Made by a program: the position numbers and the translations under genes. From positions 1 to 29,481 of the IMG/VR virus record IMGVR_UViG_3300042554_001574: DNA of 29,481 nt; one strand, 5' to 3'. The notes beneath the pieces are model-generated. The model worked only from the letters and a program-made list of their open reading frames with translations, ran no database searches and was not told the DNA's origin. The DNA comes from a virus. Shown here piece by piece: positions 18,970-29,421 of the stretch (the stretch's first letter is position 1; the number at the start of each line of letters is the position of its first letter).

Positions 18970-19896
18970 TCACCCCGCCGCGAGCCGTTCTGCCGTCATG
19001 CTGATCAGCCCCTGTGCAGACGGATCGAGACGGCGATAGGCCGACAGAAGGCTGTCTTCGGACGATTGAGCAGCCCCGAACGATTGCGGAACTCTCACGC
19101 GGTCCATTGCGGCGGTCAGGATTTCCAAAGCCGGCACGTAATGGTCCCGTGTTCCCAGTCCATGCCCGTGCAAAAGTGCCCCGGCATCAGATGACACCTT
19201 CGACCATTCGGTGATGCCTCGGTCCCGGATCTGACTCGGCAAGATTCGCGGGATCTTTGCGATTGTGCAGACTCGGTCAAGTTCGCCCCGGACGATGACC
19301 TGCGCGTGATCGTTGCTCAACTTGTAAGGTAGCCTTACGGGTTCGAGCCATTTGCGGAGCCACGGCGGAACTGGGATGCGGTGACGGTGGCCAGTCTTTT
19401 GAGCTTCCCAACTGATCGACCTGACAGCAGCGTCGGAGGCCAGTTGGAGCTTCAAGCAGTCCTCCAGCCTGGCACAGGACCAATACATCAGGACAACCAG
19501 TTGGCAGCTCCACGGCGCGAGCCACGGCCAGCAGGTATCGAGGTCAGCAATATCGCAAGGCTTCGGATCGGGCTTTGGCTTTTTCACCGTGTTGAGCAGC
19601 TCCGGTCCGCCTGCGTCGAGGACGATCGTGCGGACATCCTTGACGACGCCACGAATCGATGCCTCTGGGATCTGCTGCAATCTGGCTGCACTGACAAACG
19701 TTTCGACGTGGGCCTGCGTGATGGTCGAGCATTCGAGATTCTGCACGACTTTGGCAAATCTCCGGCAGTTGCTCAGCGGTGTTTTTGCGATGCTCTTTCG
19801 GTCGCAGTATTCGGCGGCATGTTCAACGATGTTCATAATGGACGTTCCAGTGATGTGAATCCATTCACTGGCAGGCGGGCGAGGGCATTGCGACAC
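18970..19896 (-). CDS. Tyrosine recombinase / integrase, divergent
   Basis: This 308-residue protein (if read from the GTG at 19896) carries the tyrosine recombinase core: R143 in YWSCARLEDCLKL, K167 in QKTGHRHRIPVPPWL, R224 in LPSQIRDRGITEW, H245 in LLHGHGLGTRDHYV, and the nucleophile Y253. The box II histidine of the usual HxxR is replaced by S221 (SQIR). The N-terminal ~110 residues form a SAM-like core-binding domain. ATG 19836 (MNIVEHAAEY) is an alternative start and would remove 20 residues of unlikely sequence. It probably integrates the phage genome, next to a tRNA-like sequence near 20030-20054. A terminator follows it. Confidence 0.82.
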   Translation of the reverse strand: MSQCPRPPASEWIHITGTSIMNIVEHAAEYCDRKSIAKTPLSNCRRFAKVVQNLECSTITQAHVETFVSAARLQQIPEASIRGVVKDVRTIVLDAGGPELLNTVKKPKPDPKPCDIADLDTCWPWLAPWSCQLVVLMYWSCARLEDCLKLQLASDAAVRSISWEAQKTGHRHRIPVPPWLRKWLEPVRLPYKLSNDHAQVIVRGELDRVCTIAKIPRILPSQIRDRGITEWSKVSSDAGALLHGHGLGTRDHYVPALEILTAAMDRVRVPQSFGAAQSSEDSLLSAYRRLDPSAQGLISMTAERLAAG

Positions 19897-20058
19897 CCTA
19901 AGATCGGTCGTATGGATTAAGTAAAAACAGCGTTTTTTGCGGGGTGTTTCCCCATTGTGGATGGCTAGCGCGGTCCTCTCCAGGGGGGATCGTCGCCCCT
20001 ATTTCAGGAGCTAGTGAGGTAAAACTCGTGCAGGTTCAACTCCTGTCTTGCGCAATGA
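19897..20058. other. Structured intergenic region with tRNA-like T arm (possible attachment site or ncRNA)
   Basis: No gene is seen here. GCAGG-TTCAACT-CCTGT (20030-20046) forms a perfect tRNA-like T arm and loop, followed by CTTGCGCA, which looks like the 3' strand of an acceptor stem. GCGCGG (19968-19973) could pair with it. However, no D arm or convincing anticodon arm can be fitted, and no CCA is present, so an intact tRNA is not supported. CAGGAG...CTCCTG and AAAAAC-AGC-GTTTTT are further hairpins. A phage attachment core copied from the end of a host tRNA gene, or a small structured RNA, would explain it. Confidence 0.4.
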
Positions 20059-20129
20059 CCCGAGGGTGCGACGGCTGATTGATCGACAAAGTCTGGTCAG
20101 CCTGAGCTTCTCACCCCTCGGGCTTTTTT
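20059..20129 (+). terminator. Branched intrinsic terminator
   Basis: CCCGAGGGTG (20059-20068) pairs with CACCCCTCGGG (20112-20122) with one bulged base. Inside it GGCTGA (20073-20078) pairs with TCAGCC (20097-20102). Six Ts follow (20124-20129). Something is therefore transcribed rightwards before it, though no gene is visible there. Confidence 0.7.
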
Positions 20130-20130
20130 C

Positions 20131-20158
20131 TTGCGTTACTATAGAGACACGCTACACT
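20131..20158 (+). promoter_or_regulatory. Promoter/operator of the HTH gene
   Basis: TTGCGT (20131-20136), a 16-base spacer and TACACT (20153-20158) form a modest promoter. The spacer holds CTATAGAGAC, nearly identical to the left half of the operator in the promoter at 20396. The likely transcription start (about 20165) would lie very near the gene's ATG codons (20166/20172), so the mRNA would have almost no leader. Confidence 0.55.
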
Positions 20159-20171
20159 TCGGAGCATGATC

Positions 20172-20390
20172 ATGACAGAAGAAAAAACATACTCGGTCAA
20201 AGAGGCCGCGAATGAGGTAAGGCTTTCGCGTGCGATCGTGTCACGTCTTTGCCAGCGTGGATTGATCGGAAAGAAGTACGAATTCCCTGAGTTTTCGCAG
20301 CATGTTTACAGGTTAACCGATGAAGACCTTGAGACACTGCGAGAGCGAAAAAGAGACTGGCAGAAAAAACTGCAAAAAAAATCTGCGTAG
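20172..20390 (+). CDS. MerR/excisionase-like HTH regulator
   Basis: This 72-residue DNA-binding protein has a winged helix-turn-helix at its start: TYSVKEAANEVRLSRAIVSR (about 5-24), then LCQRGLIGKKYEFPEF and HVYRLTDEDLETLRE, the usual MerR-N-terminal/excisionase layout. It ends in a very basic tail (RKRDWQKKLQKKSA). ATG 20172 is preferred because GGAG (20161-20164) is 7 bases upstream; ATG 20166 is also possible if the mRNA is leaderless. It lies between two operator-bearing promoters and beside an integrase. It is therefore either the repressor of the early operon or an excisionase; small Xis proteins often do both. Confidence 0.7.
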   Translation: MTEEKTYSVKEAANEVRLSRAIVSRLCQRGLIGKKYEFPEFSQHVYRLTDEDLETLRERKRDWQKKLQKKSA

Positions 20391-20395
20391 TGGTG

Positions 20396-20424
20396 TTGAC
20401 AGTCTGTAGAGACCTCTCTACAGT
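20396..20424 (+). promoter_or_regulatory. Early promoter with palindromic operator
   Basis: TTGACA (20396-20401, a perfect -35), a 17-base spacer and TACAGT (20419-20424) form the best promoter in the window. The spacer and -10 contain a perfect inverted repeat, CTGTAGAGA (20404-20412) and TCTCTACAG (20415-20423), two bases apart. A repressor bound there would block RNA polymerase. The operator-bearing design matches the promoter at 20131-20158. It should drive the early genes from 20598 on. Confidence 0.8.
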
Positions 20425-20430
20425 GCCGCC

Positions 20431-20597
20431 GTGTTGAGTTTACGGATAGCCGATTCGCGTGAGAACGAATCGGAAATCCATTCAATCAGACTTTGTCACT
20501 GGGCCGTCTTGGTCCTTCCGTCACGCATTGATTGCGGTCGGAGATGTGACGCAGATGGAATCTGCCTTTCGCATGGAAGGCGATTTAACGGTGTTGC
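20431..20597 (+). other. Structured 5' leader of the early operon
   Basis: Between the expected transcription start (about 20431) and the methyltransferase gene lie about 167 bases. CCGATTCG (20450-20457) and CGAATCGG (20466-20473) form a perfect 8-base-pair hairpin. GCAGA-TGGAA-TCTGC and CCTT...AAGG follow. Short frames run through it, but none has a ribosome site or recognisable product. Attenuation or translational control is possible. Confidence 0.4.
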
Positions 20598-21989
20598 ATG
20601 GGCACGCGCCAAAATGGCGAAGCGCCTGCGAATCTCGCATGGCATCCAGCAGCTTGCATTTTCCCGATGATGCCAGATGACGAGCTCCAGTCTTTGGCAG
20701 ACGACATCGCAAAGCATGGACTCCGAGAACCTGTCGTCATGTTCGACGGCAAAGTTCTTGACGGTCGAAACCGCAGTGCAGCCTGTGCAATCGCTCAAGT
20801 AAAGCCGAAGACGATCGAGTTCAATGGATCGGCATCAGATGCCCTGTCGTTTGTCTGGTCAAAGAATCGGACGCGAAGACATCTGAGCTCCAGTCAGGCC
20901 GCGATTGCAGACGCAAAGCGAGCTCAACTTGATGAGGAATATCAGAAGGCGATTGCCGCTACTGTTGCTGAACAGCCAAAAGGTGGAAGGCCGAAAACCG
21001 GTACAAATAATTGTACCAGTAAAAAGGACACGTCAGCACTGACAGATGAGAAGCGTGCAACAGCGGCGGGAACGAATCGAACATACATCAAGCCAGCCCA
21101 AAAGATCGTCGCGACTCGCCCTGACCTCGCCGAGAAAATCGAACAGGGCAAGCTGACTATCCCCCAGGCAACGGCAGAAATCAAGCGAACCGAAAAGGCG
21201 GTCGAGCTCCAGCAAAAGGCGGCAGCAGTTCAGGAGCTTAGCAACGATCAGCCATCGTGGACCCTGATCAATGACGATGTGATGACCGGGCTGGAATCAG
21301 TCCGCGACAATCACGGGCCTGCACGCCTGATCTTCACGGATCCACCCTACAACATCGGCATCGACTACGGCGACGGTGCTGAAGCCGACTCAATGCCTCA
21401 TGATAAGTTTGTCGGCTGGTGCAAAGACTGGCTGGCACTGTGCCGTGAATGCCTGACGGACGACGGTAGTCTGTGGTTGATGACGTGCGACGAGGTTGCC
21501 GCAGAGTCCTGTTTGATCCTAAAGGATCTGGGATTCAACATACGGAACTGGATCAAGTGGTACGAGACGTTTGGCGTCAACTGCTCCGGGAAGTTCAACC
21601 GAACCAGCCGCCACATCTTTTACGCGACCATGCACAAACGGGCAATGGTCTGGAACGCGGAGCCGGTGTCGCGGCCGTCTGATCGTCAGACGAAGTACAA
21701 CGACAAACGTGCTGCTGCTGGCGGAAAGATTTGGGACGACGTTTGGCAGATTCCGCGGCTGACAGGCTCCTGCGAAGAACGGATTCCGACGTTCCCGACA
21801 CAGCTTCCCTTGGCACTGGTTGAACCGATCGTGCTTTGTGCCAGTGAGTTGGGCGATTTGGTTGTGGATCCGTTTAACGGCAGCGGAACAACAGGTGTTG
21901 CTGCCATCCGGAACGGTCGTAAGTACATCGGAATCGACAAGAGCGAATCGTTTATTGATCTCGCTCAAAAACGGCTGGTGATTTCATGA
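20598..21989 (+). CDS. ParB-like domain fused to DNA methyltransferase (beta class)
   Basis: This 463-residue protein has a ParB/sulfiredoxin-like N-terminal domain (WHPAACIFPMMPDDELQSLA, VLDGRNRSAAC at 53-63, about residues 15-125), a basic/helical middle, and a C-terminal DNA methyltransferase. Motif IV is DPPY (248-251, in LIFTDPPYNIGIDYG) and the SAM-binding motif FNGSG is at 426-430 (VVDPFNGSGTTGVAAIRNGR). Catalytic motif before SAM motif marks the beta class, as in CcrM-type adenine or N4-cytosine enzymes. It probably marks phage DNA against host restriction; the site is unknown. There is no strong ribosome site before ATG 20598, the first start in its frame. The HNH gene overlaps its end by ATGA. 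Confidence 0.9.
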   Translation: MGTRQNGEAPANLAWHPAACIFPMMPDDELQSLADDIAKHGLREPVVMFDGKVLDGRNRSAACAIAQVKPKTIEFNGSASDALSFVWSKNRTRRHLSSSQAAIADAKRAQLDEEYQKAIAATVAEQPKGGRPKTGTNNCTSKKDTSALTDEKRATAAGTNRTYIKPAQKIVATRPDLAEKIEQGKLTIPQATAEIKRTEKAVELQQKAAAVQELSNDQPSWTLINDDVMTGLESVRDNHGPARLIFTDPPYNIGIDYGDGAEADSMPHDKFVGWCKDWLALCRECLTDDGSLWLMTCDEVAAESCLILKDLGFNIRNWIKWYETFGVNCSGKFNRTSRHIFYATMHKRAMVWNAEPVSRPSDRQTKYNDKRAAAGGKIWDDVWQIPRLTGSCEERIPTFPTQLPLALVEPIVLCASELGDLVVDPFNGSGTTGVAAIRNGRKYIGIDKSESFIDLAQKRLVIS

Positions 21990-23701: not shown

Positions 23702-23894
23702 CCAGAAGAACCGTGCGATCCGGTTTAACAAATCAACAGTGATCGCAAGCGGTGGAGTGTTTCCATCGTGGCCCCTTGCAACGGCGGGGGCCGAATACAT
23801 ACAAGCGGGCTCGGCATGGATCAAAGCCGATCGGGTGATCTCCGACGCAAACGATTTGCGGCCCGTTTTTAACAACAAGGCAAGGAGGTGTTTA
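23702..23894 (+). other. Untranslated stretch before csrA
   Basis: The csrA frame is open through this region without a credible start or ribosome site, and no other gene is seen. The end holds the hairpin and T run at 23832-23870, then the csrA ribosome site. It is probably a regulatory leader. Confidence 0.35.
23832..23870 (+). terminator. Terminator/attenuator before csrA
   Basis: CGCAAA (23846-23851) pairs with TTTGCG (23855-23860) around CGA. An outer CGGG (23832-23835) may pair with CCCG (23862-23865). TTTTT follows (23866-23870). It could reduce read-through into csrA or end the tiny-gene transcript. Confidence 0.45.
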
Positions 23895-24086
23895 GTGTTA
23901 GTTCTGAGCCGCAAGGCTAATCAGGAAATCTGCATCGGGGATGACATCCGCGTGATGGTCATCGAGATCAGGGGCGACAAAGTCAGGCTTGGAGTTACGG
24001 CTCCGCGGGACACGTCGGTCCATCGTCACGAGATATATGACGCTATCAAGCAAGTCATTGAGTCCAATGACAGTGATTGTGATTGA
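23895..24086 (+). CDS. csrA: CsrA/RsmA-type RNA-binding translational regulator
   Basis: This 63-residue protein is a full-length CsrA. It begins MLVLSRKANQEICIGDDIRV and continues EIRGDKVRLGVTAPRDTSVH, then RHEIYDAI. R6 and R44, the two arginines that contact GGA in the RNA, are both present. CsrA dimers bind A(N)GGA in hairpin loops, often at ribosome sites, blocking or protecting mRNAs. The start is a GTG (23895) with a perfect AAGGAGG (23882-23888) six bases upstream; longer in-frame frames extend the protein with no family-like sequence. A terminator-like hairpin precedes it. A phage-borne csrA could re-tune host metabolism or control phage genes; the capsid leader is a candidate target. 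Confidence 0.93.
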   Translation: MLVLSRKANQEICIGDDIRVMVIEIRGDKVRLGVTAPRDTSVHRHEIYDAIKQVIESNDSDCD

Positions 24087-27018: not shown

Positions 27019-27786
27019 GTGGCTGGCGACTGGATCAAGATCGATATCTCGACACCGGATAAACCGGAAATCGACAGGATGGCCACCATCCTGAAACTGG
27101 ACCATGACTCCGTTGTTGGAAAGTGCATTCGTGTTTGGATATGGGCTGATTTGCAGAGCGTAGACGGTAACGCTCTGAGCGTTACAGAAACGTTTCTTGA
27201 TCGACTCACGTACTGTCCCGGATTCTCCGAGGCGCTCCGTCAAGTAGGCTGGTTGACAGGCCGCGAAGGCCGTCTGTCAATCCCCAACTTTGACCGACAC
27301 AACGGACAAACCGCAAAAAACAGGGCACTCACGTCGAAGAGAGTCAAGAAATCACGTAACGCTGAGACCGTTACAAAATCGTTACCAGAGAAGAGAAGAG
27401 AAGAGAAGAGTATCTCTCTTCCTTCAGACGCGAAAAACCCAGACGTGTTTGTTCCTGAAAAGATGCAAACGCCGGAAGTGCAGGAGGCCGCGGCGTTGTG
27501 GTGGTCACATCTCAGGCTTGAGCATCCAGACAAGGTGCCAGAGCCAAACAGCCCGCAGTTGCAGGCGTTTTGGAATGACGCCAATCGGATGGGGCCAAAG
27601 GTGTTTGTTGAGGCGGTGAACTGGTCAGCTAAAAACAGATGGGCCACTCTTCGGGAGCGTCCAGAGCATGAGCAGAAAGGAACAGGCGGTGGGAAATCTG
27701 GCAGTACAGCAGGCAACAGCACGGCAGATCGAGAGAAGGCAAAATTGCAACGAATCCTTTCCGGTCGTGGCTCTGAAGCTGTCTGA
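27019..27786 (+). CDS. Phage replication initiation protein (O-like)
   Basis: This 255-residue protein starts at GTG 27019 with GGAG (27008-27011) seven bases before. Residues 1-100 match a known phage/plasmid replication-type domain: GDWIKIDISTPDKPEIDRMA, VVGKCIRVWIWADLQSVDGN, LDRLTYCPGFSEALRQVGWL, LSIPNFDRHNGQTAKNRALT. A winged-helix fold is expected. A low-complexity linker (SLPEKRREEKSIS) is encoded by AAGAG repeats. The C-terminal part (VQEAAALWWSHLRLEHPDKV ... AKNRWATLRERP) may contact a helicase loader. As in lambda O, the origin may lie inside this gene; see the repeats at 27167-27410. Confidence 0.72.
   Translation: MAGDWIKIDISTPDKPEIDRMATILKLDHDSVVGKCIRVWIWADLQSVDGNALSVTETFLDRLTYCPGFSEALRQVGWLTGREGRLSIPNFDRHNGQTAKNRALTSKRVKKSRNAETVTKSLPEKRREEKSISLPSDAKNPDVFVPEKMQTPEVQEAAALWWSHLRLEHPDKVPEPNSPQLQAFWNDANRMGPKVFVEAVNWSAKNRWATLRERPEHEQKGTGGGKSGSTAGNSTADREKAKLQRILSGRGSEAV
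27167..27185. repeat. Iteron-like inverted repeat, copy 1
   Basis: GTAACGCTCTGAGCGTTAC: GTAACGC and GCGTTAC face each other across five bases. A 19-base relative with the same arms occurs at 27356, 189 bases downstream, in the same reading frame. Confidence 0.5.
27356..27385. repeat. Iteron-like inverted repeat, copy 2, plus extra CGTTAC
   Basis: GTAACGCTGAGACCGTTAC (27356-27374) has the same GTAACG/CGTTAC arms and 19-base length as copy 1. A further CGTTAC lies at 27380-27385. Five GTAACG/CGTTAC hexamers fall within about 220 bases of the replication gene. Confidence 0.5.
27387..27410. repeat. AAGAG tandem repeat (origin candidate)
   Basis: AGAG followed by four AAGAG units, an all-purine tract that encodes the EKRREEK linker. 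CTCTCTT after it can fold back on it. Such tracts beside iterons could ease strand opening; they could also just be a slippage-prone linker. Confidence 0.5.
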
Positions 27787-28191: not shown

Positions 28192-29421
28192 GTGAGTCAT
28201 GCAATGTCCGCAGTTCAGTTAAGTGATTTTCAGTTTTGTTTTGATACCGGCTCGACCAATCCGGTTCCGCTGAAAGTGTTTCAGGAGCCACAAGTTCAGG
28301 CCGCTGAAGTTGTGAAACCGGAAGTAGTCGAGGCGAGAAGTTTGGTGGATCTGTACGACGAGCTGCTATCAGCCAGTGACAAGGAAAAGCGAGTGTCGAT
28401 GAAGACGATCAGAGACAACCGGGCCGCACTCGACAAGTTCGAGGTCTGGGGACGTACGCAGCATCGAGTTGTGGCCGGCAGATCTTTGAGCTTGCTTGAG
28501 CAGCCAAAGATTCTAAGAACCTACGCTGAGGTTTTGCGGGCGCAGCCGAAAGGGAATTCATCGGCGATGGCCAGCAAAGCCTTGTCCTCGGTCGGCAAGT
28601 TGGCCGGGGCTTGTGTGCGGGCTGGAATGCTGAAGCAGAAGCCGGAGACGGTTAGTAAATCAACGATCAATCTGCTGAGGCCGCGGACTGAGGAGCAGAG
28701 ACGAGTCAAAGCGGTTCCTGTCACGGTGGCTGAACTTCAGGCGATGCTGTCCGTTGTGGACGGCTGCAAATGGCCGCGACTGGGGAGCGTGAAGCCGTCC
28801 GTGTTCTGGCAAACAAGCCTGCTGGCTCACTACGTTTACGGGTTTCGGTCACAGGATTGGTTTGCGGCACGATCGGCGGAGAAGAAAGGGCTGTTGTGGT
28901 CTGGGGTGATCACCTCGAGTCAATGCCCTGCTCTGGATGATCTGCACAATGCCGCCGGTTGGGCATGGTACCTGGTACACAAGACAGCGAAAAAAGATGA
29001 AGCGGCTGAGCGGCCGTCAGACGTGTTAGTTCCGTTGTCGGCGAAAATGCGTGATCTGCTCGAGCAGTTCCGCGGGCTGGATCCAGACAGAGTGTTTCCA
29101 CTGGCGAACAATTCGCGGACATACTCGGAAGAGTTCGCGAGACTGCTCGACCGCGCTGGGCTGTCTGATGACGCGCGACGGAAGGAAAACAAGCCGATCA
29201 TTCGGCTGAGTCTTGGCCAGCGTAATGTGGCCAGCTTCCGGAAGGGATCGTCAGCACTGTGGGCGAAGTATGTGAGCCGCGCGGCTTCGAGCTACATGCT
29301 TCACCATGCAGTCAGCGAGGAAGGTGTGGCAAAGATGACCGCTGAATCGTACCTGCAGAGTGAAGAGATTCTGAGAGACATCGTCGCGAAGATTGAGAGT
29401 CTGCCGGTGTGGTCGCTTTAG
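28192..29421 (+). CDS. Tyrosine recombinase / integrase (second)
   Basis: This 409-residue protein has the tyrosine recombinase order: R219 (YVYGFRSQDWFAARS), K264 (YLVHKTAKKDE), R350 (QRNVASFRKGSSALW), H371/H372 (YMLHHAVSEEGVAK) and nucleophile Y387 (MTAESYLQSEE). The box II histidine is not in its usual place (ASFR). Residues 1-170 form an N-terminal arm and core-binding region, including DLYDELLSASDKEKRVSMKT. GTG 28192 has AAAGGA upstream; ATG 28204 is also possible. It differs clearly from the integrase at 18970-19896. It may integrate the phage, or resolve multimers of an unintegrated phage-plasmid. Confidence 0.78.
   Translation: MSHAMSAVQLSDFQFCFDTGSTNPVPLKVFQEPQVQAAEVVKPEVVEARSLVDLYDELLSASDKEKRVSMKTIRDNRAALDKFEVWGRTQHRVVAGRSLSLLEQPKILRTYAEVLRAQPKGNSSAMASKALSSVGKLAGACVRAGMLKQKPETVSKSTINLLRPRTEEQRRVKAVPVTVAELQAMLSVVDGCKWPRLGSVKPSVFWQTSLLAHYVYGFRSQDWFAARSAEKKGLLWSGVITSSQCPALDDLHNAAGWAWYLVHKTAKKDEAAERPSDVLVPLSAKMRDLLEQFRGLDPDRVFPLANNSRTYSEEFARLLDRAGLSDDARRKENKPIIRLSLGQRNVASFRKGSSALWAKYVSRAASSYMLHHAVSEEGVAKMTAESYLQSEEILRDIVAKIESLPVWSL

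Follow-up and report, generated by a model that had tools for sequence, protein, structure and literature searches.

A small winged-helix protein gene and two operator-like sites as a likely exchangeable immunity cassette of a temperate phage

In a 29,481 bp stretch of viral DNA (IMG/VR virus record IMGVR_UViG_3300042554_001574; the whole stretch is called the window below), a gene for a small HTH protein lies between two promoters whose spacers carry related, operator-like sequences. Both sites persist in relatives that have the same type of protein, and in sister phages the protein and the site pair are replaced together by other small HTH genes with site pairs of their own. We consider it likely, from these sequence comparisons, that the region serves a temperate phage as an immunity cassette that can be exchanged, with a candidate repressor and the operators O1 and O2 behaving as a unit.

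Results

Genomic context of the HTH gene

In order, the window encodes terminase, head and tail proteins and, on the minus strand, an integrase, followed by the HTH protein and an early operon on the plus strand. The early operon contains a methylase, HNH-like genes, CsrA, an exonuclease VIII-like PDDEXK gene, RusA, an HD phosphatase and a replication initiator. Among 50,697 phage records we found no relative of the large terminase (TerL) and nothing similar to the HTH protein, and the collection thus offers no cultured relative of the phage group. Genomic relatives of TerL are mostly Planctomycetota prophages (38-59% best-segment identity), from which we infer that the host is probably a planctomycete.

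The contigs of L084, L086, L087, L090 and the window share one starting base, 498 bp 5' of the terminase large subunit gene, which suggests a fixed, cos-like genome end at the start of the window. At 28192-29421 the window encodes a 409 aa protein that looks by eye like a second tyrosine recombinase and matches nothing in Pfam or PHROG. Within the replication initiator gene, palindromic repeats GTAACGCTnnnAGCGTTAC occur at 27167-27185 and 27356-27374; repeats of this type stand at a near-constant distance from the start of the initiator gene in L004, L005, L006, L012, L013, L014, L036 and others, and are possibly a replication origin.

The integrase gene (18970..19896, minus strand) is tyrosine-recombinase-like and diverges from the cassette. 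It belongs to no Pfam or PHROG family; its family alignment retains R143, R224, H243/H245, H252 and Y253, and a relative of it adjoins the cassette in nine cassette phages. The 3' half of a tRNA-Leu(CAG)-like sequence at 20003..20054 (plus strand) is the probable attP core. A 41-nt piece of this remnant differs from planctomycete tRNA-Leu genes by three mismatches, and complete tRNA-Leu(CAG) genes occupy the att region at L077:468-552, L078:4763-4847 and L080:3866-3951; ARAGORN detected no whole tRNA in the window. An exact search of genome contigs with the att core returned no integrated copy, the distant prophages found via TerL, mostly of Planctomycetota and with 38-51% identity over most segments, held no recognisable cassette, and in 397 genomes from a single planctomycete class the integrase had only distant relatives, with no adjoining cassette in the pieces read. 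Next to the att remnant, a terminator-like hairpin, CCCGAGGGTG...CACCCCTCGGG with a T run after it (20059..20130, plus strand), is conserved in L002 and folds as RNA at -31.2 kcal/mol (z -2.5). It would shield the promoter of the HTH gene from upstream transcription.

Two promoters carry related operator-like sequences

The initial annotation proposed twin promoters sharing an operator on either side of the HTH gene, and both are present in the sequence with the hexamers it gave. P1, the promoter of the HTH gene (20131..20158, plus strand), consists of TTGCGT (20131-20136), a 16-bp spacer containing CTATAGAGAC and TACACT (20153-20158). P2, that of the early operon (20396..20424, plus strand), consists of TTGACA (20396-20401), a 17-bp spacer containing CTGTAGAGAC and TACAGT (20419-20424). 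The operator-like sequence was likewise found in both spacers. Candidate operator O1 (20140..20156, plus strand), TATAGAG-ACA-CGCTACA, is a dyad of imperfect symmetry around a 3-bp centre; candidate operator O2 (20404..20423, plus strand) is the perfect 9+9 palindrome CTGTAGAGAccTCTCTACAG with a 4-bp centre, as had been claimed, and each site overlaps the -10 hexamer of its promoter.

The O2 palindrome is the sole match in the window at up to three mismatches, where 0.01 are expected. Perfect 9+9 palindromes whose centre measures 0-4 bp number two in the 29.5 kb, O2 included (shuffles expect 0.45). The block CT[AG]TAGAGAC is confined to the places of O1 and O2, and the half-sites TGTAGAG, TATAGAG and CTCTACA occur on the plus strand of the window at P1 and P2 only. 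From symmetry alone, O1 would be expected to be the weak site and O2 the strong one. The half-sites are set 3 bp apart in O1 and 4 bp apart in O2, a difference that would be hard for a rigid dimer to accommodate.

The hexamers of P1 are weak: a consensus promoter scan, in which about one such match is expected by chance, reports P2 alone. Planctomycete promoters are here assumed to follow a sigma-70-like consensus. We accept P1 because of its conservation, its position and the stronger -35 hexamer, TTGTCA, in L077. The P1 -10 hexamer ends 7 nt ahead of the first ATG, so close that the HTH transcript would have little or no leader.

The HTH protein has a predicted MerR-type fold

The gene of the winged-HTH repressor candidate (20166..20390, plus strand) encodes 74 aa. 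The length of 72 residues given at first is right if translation begins at the second ATG (20172), while the open reading frame from the first ATG (20166) is two codons longer. In a Pfam profile search the protein matches HTH_17 at E 9.7e-4 (19.8 bits, below the cut-off of 27) and has no HTH_3 (XRE) match; its best PHROG is 66, excisionase/transcriptional regulator (E 3.3e-4). An AlphaFold2 model built from four sequences (pLDDT 81) shows two helices and a two-stranded wing, with a further helix at the C terminus. The nearest solved structures in Foldseek are the MerR-type domains of HiNmlR, RacA and BldC, none at E <= 0.001, and VIA-align against the MerR-type regulator CvkR gives Z 8.4, at the margin of a common arrangement. 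The fold is thus predicted to be a MerR-type winged helix, a likeness that is no proof of function. In the predicted structure the protein ends after one helix, without the C-terminal effector-binding region of MerR, and the spacers of P1 and P2, at 16 and 17 bp, contrast with the long 19-20 bp spacer of the MerR family.

Relatives with the same protein keep both sites

We checked related phages for co-conserved palindromes. The HTH proteins of L002/L003 and L077 are 89% and 74% identical to that of the window, and these relatives retain the paired sites with the protein in the same layout. The P1 region of L002 is identical to the window's from the T run through the start codon, and O1 is identical in L002/L003. 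O2 of L002 reads TGTAGAG-GGT-CTCTACA, with a 3-bp centre and changed flanks; its left half is shifted by 1 bp, yet it still mirrors the right half, as in a compensated half-site. L077 has the O1 sequence TGTAGAG-ACA-CGCTACA and an O2 identical to the window's.

Sister phages carry other HTH genes and site pairs in the same slot

By following the methylase and the integrase, and not the HTH protein, we reached eight sister phages in which a different small HTH gene lies between the integrase/att region and the early leader, each with its own, different operator-like pair. The slot proteins comprise five XRE kinds and one other kind. Those of L068, L071, L078, L080, L083 and L072 have an HTH_3/XRE domain (E 8e-6 to 9e-13), and those of L069 and L204 are of another small HTH kind, L069 being 25% identical to the window's protein. 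With the XRE proteins, the O1/O2 pairs are TTTGTTGTATCAAACAAA / TTTGTTGGATACAACAAA in L071 (18 of 19 bases matching), ATAACGCTGATGGTATAT / ATAACGCTGGTGTTATAT in L068, TATTCCAATCGGTATA / ATATTCCGATTGGAATAT in L080 with a like pair in L078, CGGGTTCCATAACACCCG / CGGGTGGAATACCACCCG in L083 and TTTAGCAATGACTATA / TTTAGGAATCGCTATA in L072; the pairs of L069 and L204 share the half-site TWCCKC.

The types have the geometry of P2 in common: it starts at or just past the stop codon, and its spacer of 16-17 bp is taken up by the palindrome. The place of O1 varies; it is within the P1 spacer in the window type, L069/L204, L078/L080 and L072, and just 5' of the P1 -35 hexamer, touching it, in L068, L071 and L083. 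The P1 -10 hexamer ends 6-8 nt ahead of the start codon in every type (judged by eye in L204 and in L072, where it reads TATAAC), so the transcript should start at the AUG or within a few bases of it. By eye, O2 is more symmetric than O1 in five of the seven types, L069/L204 being mixed and L072 equivocal.

In L068, L069, L071 and L072, a terminator-like hairpin and T run stand right at the expected P2 transcription start; such a hairpin could stop read-through from P1 while sparing P2 transcripts, or could be an attenuator. At L067:5750-5900 the paired-operator cassette is replaced by an Xis-like HTH gene with two direct copies of TTCCGGAtACtGTCAGT ahead of it.

Sites from the same phage resemble each other

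With one representative for each of the seven protein types, pairing O1 with O2 of the same phage gives the highest summed similarity of all 5,040 permutations, and the result holds with the window, L002 or L077 standing for the first type. The signal is strong within the single phages L071, L068, L078/L080 and L077; L069, L083 and L072, taken singly, do not rise above non-cognate pairs. Since the cassettes were first recognised by eye, the permutation tests the pairing and not the discovery. A blind scan of 6,058 small open reading frames for matching flanks ranked each of the ten known cassettes within the top 4%. The scan does not cleanly separate cassettes from terminators and ribosome-binding-site repeats and so is not proof, which is why we used the permutation of cognate against non-cognate sites instead.

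A structured leader precedes the early operon

The early-operon leader (20425..20597, plus strand) contains a conserved three-way-junction RNA at 20495-20553, and the RNA fold of 20487-20600 has z -3.3. An outer stem, GUCAC/GUGAC, closes two hairpins; the junction occurs in nine cassette phages, in three length types, for example at L002:8331, L069:5900, L204:4999(-), L071:5901, L080:6644(-) and, in two copies, at L078:6641(-) and 7310(-). Many paired changes distinguish the phages, such as GCCCG/CGGGC to GCCUG/CAGGC. Because of the three length types, a MAFFT and RNAalifold consensus of the mixed leaders was poor; the helices were assigned by hand and then checked across phages. Rfam has no match in the window, the leader junction included. 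On the 3' side of the junction, hairpins that carry GGA in the loop or close to it precede the first early gene. A phage CsrA is encoded at 23739-24086 of the window (Pfam E 1.2e-22), and the GGA-bearing leader hairpins are possible CsrA targets.

The first early gene (20598..21989, plus strand) encodes a ParB-like N-terminal part and an N6/N4 DNA methylase (Pfam N6_N4_Mtase, E 2.9e-48). In L002, L078, L080 and L204, all of which keep the cassette, the methylase is replaced by other genes that read from their sequences as GIY-YIG-like or HNH-like.

Discussion

A likely exchangeable immunity cassette

In the working that we propose, transcription from P1 would yield a nearly leaderless mRNA for the small DNA-binding protein with its predicted winged helix. 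As a dimer, the protein would bind the imperfect O1 in the spacer of P1 and the perfect palindrome O2 in the spacer of P2, and would thereby exclude RNA polymerase from both promoters, so that its own level would be held low and the downstream early operon kept off. The candidate repressor, O1 and O2 are inherited jointly in this reading, and in sister phages all three are swapped together for unrelated sets; those phages would then be heteroimmune.

The initial annotation had taken the HTH protein to repress both itself and the early operon, and the paired sites that co-occur with the protein, together with the swapping of both in sister phages, speak for this. It had also placed a MerR/Xis-like protein where a CI repressor would stand. 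Sister phages hold Cro/CI-type (XRE) proteins with their own site pairs in the same slot, so the MerR/Xis-like protein does seem to replace a repressor of another fold. A separate CI-like repressor (HTH plus S24 peptidase) was not recognised among the early genes, several of which are without a family match. The description of the region as a lysogeny switch fares less well. A repressor cassette beside integrase and att fits lysogeny, but a circuit of purely negative feedback cannot be bistable by itself, and it would be a switch without a second input.

Several other roles for the protein could be imagined. One that we judge doubtful, and still the most substantial of them, is that of a Cro-like timer of the lytic cycle, negatively autoregulated and shutting off the early operon upon accumulation, with no part in maintaining lysogeny. 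It would suit a circuit of negative feedback plus P2 shut-off in which no divergent partner or activator site is seen, and the att-core, TerL and integrase searches found no lysogen. Set against this, the presence of an integrase and a tRNA-Leu att points to lysogeny, for which a repressor is needed, and no other was recognised among the early genes; moreover, the exchange of whole repressor-operator sets is the expected product of selection for immunity. It seems improbable that the protein is chiefly an excisionase or recombination directionality factor of the Xis, Cox or Apl type, with control of transcription as a second task, even though its gene adjoins the integrase and att, its best PHROG and its HTH_17 match point weakly that way, and Apl of phage 186 performs both jobs (PMC7498355). 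Apl binds direct repeats that are spaced by one helical turn and lie at att and between the promoters (PMC7498355), whereas the sites here are inverted repeats at the two promoters only, with none at att or int. It is on this difference in geometry and location that the excisionase role fails, and the Xis role implied by the protein's first name is likewise disfavoured; the XRE repressors in the slot of sister phages also argue against it.

The methylase gene directly after P2 raises the thought of a controller (C) protein, as in type II restriction-modification. C proteins are small, are autoregulated via palindromic C-boxes in their own promoter and are made from leaderless mRNA, and Esp1396I has two C-boxes of different affinity upstream of its C and methylase genes (PMC4824078). 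The methylase is nevertheless missing from this position in L002, L078, L080 and L204 despite the cassette, and since it is not conserved beside the cassette this explanation fails. None of the early genes was recognised as coding for a restriction enzyme, and the window protein, with its MerR-like model and no HTH_3 match, differs from the XRE fold of C proteins; we regard a controller role as very unlikely. We give least credence to the idea that the resemblance of the two sites is largely promoter sequence plus chance and that the protein binds elsewhere. The right half-site does overlap the -10 hexamer in both promoters, and the P1 score is at chance level, but the palindrome is expected 0.01 times, the same-phage pairing ranks first among the 5,040 permutations, and site pairing recurs independently in XRE cassettes, as in L071. 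An exchangeable immunity cassette therefore remains our preferred reading.

We can extend this reading only tentatively, to a one-direction, Cro-less slot in which MerR-type and XRE repressors would be interchangeable, with weak/strong operator pairs and leaderless mRNA, and in which the lysogeny decision would be post-transcriptional, via the structured leader and possibly the phage's CsrA, with no second repressor taking part. As a whole we think this extension rather unlikely.

If the proposed working holds, immunity would be cut to about 300 bp, one protein of 70-80 aa and two sites, without a partner repressor. The seven protein-operator sets in one slot provide a natural specificity set for protein-operator swaps. 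Because different folds fill the repressor slot, searches for CI-like proteins only would miss the immunity genes of such phages.

Comparison with known systems

The immunity regions of lambda, 434 and 21 resemble the cassette in that repressor and operators are swapped as a unit, the operators overlap the early promoter and an integrase lies nearby; the cI mRNA that lambda makes at PRM is also leaderless. Unlike those regions, this one has its repressor gene and early operon in the same direction, with the integrase as the only divergent neighbour in place of a divergent cI/cro pair, and it has single operators and no protease-sensitive domain. In the window phage, a MerR-type winged HTH replaces the XRE domain. 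With the MerR family (RacA, CvkR, HiNmlR) the window protein shares its predicted winged-helix fold and an operator in the -35/-10 spacer. MerR activators work at promoters with long spacers, whereas here the 16-17 bp spacers are normal, and the protein lacks an effector domain or long coiled coil.

Controller proteins such as those of Esp1396I and Csp231I are, as we propose for the window protein, small autoregulators with leaderless mRNA and paired sites, of different affinity, at their own gene and a second promoter (PMC4824078). What sets them apart is an exclusively XRE fold and a linkage to restriction; downstream of the present cassette the gene changes from phage to phage, and none of the early genes was recognised as a restriction gene. 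Apl of 186 and Cox of P2 are small HTH proteins near the integrase that repress early and lysogenic promoters, but they use direct repeats with spreading, also bind att and act alongside a separate immunity repressor (PMC7498355). Mycobacteriophage BPs has a small repressor, gp33, an OR with a palindromic half-site between the -35 and -10 of the early promoter, a second operator at the repressor promoter and an att that adjoins the repressor (PMC4557955), much as in the cassette proposed here. Peculiar to BPs are divergent Prep and PR promoters, an attP inside the repressor gene that makes immunity integration-dependent, a Cro-like gene and several further operators (PMC4557955). In the open-access literature searched we found no description of the layout reported here. 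Exchangeable immunity regions are already classical; what differs in these phages is that the layout runs in a single direction, that no partner is visible, that the cassette is small and that unrelated folds occur in one slot.
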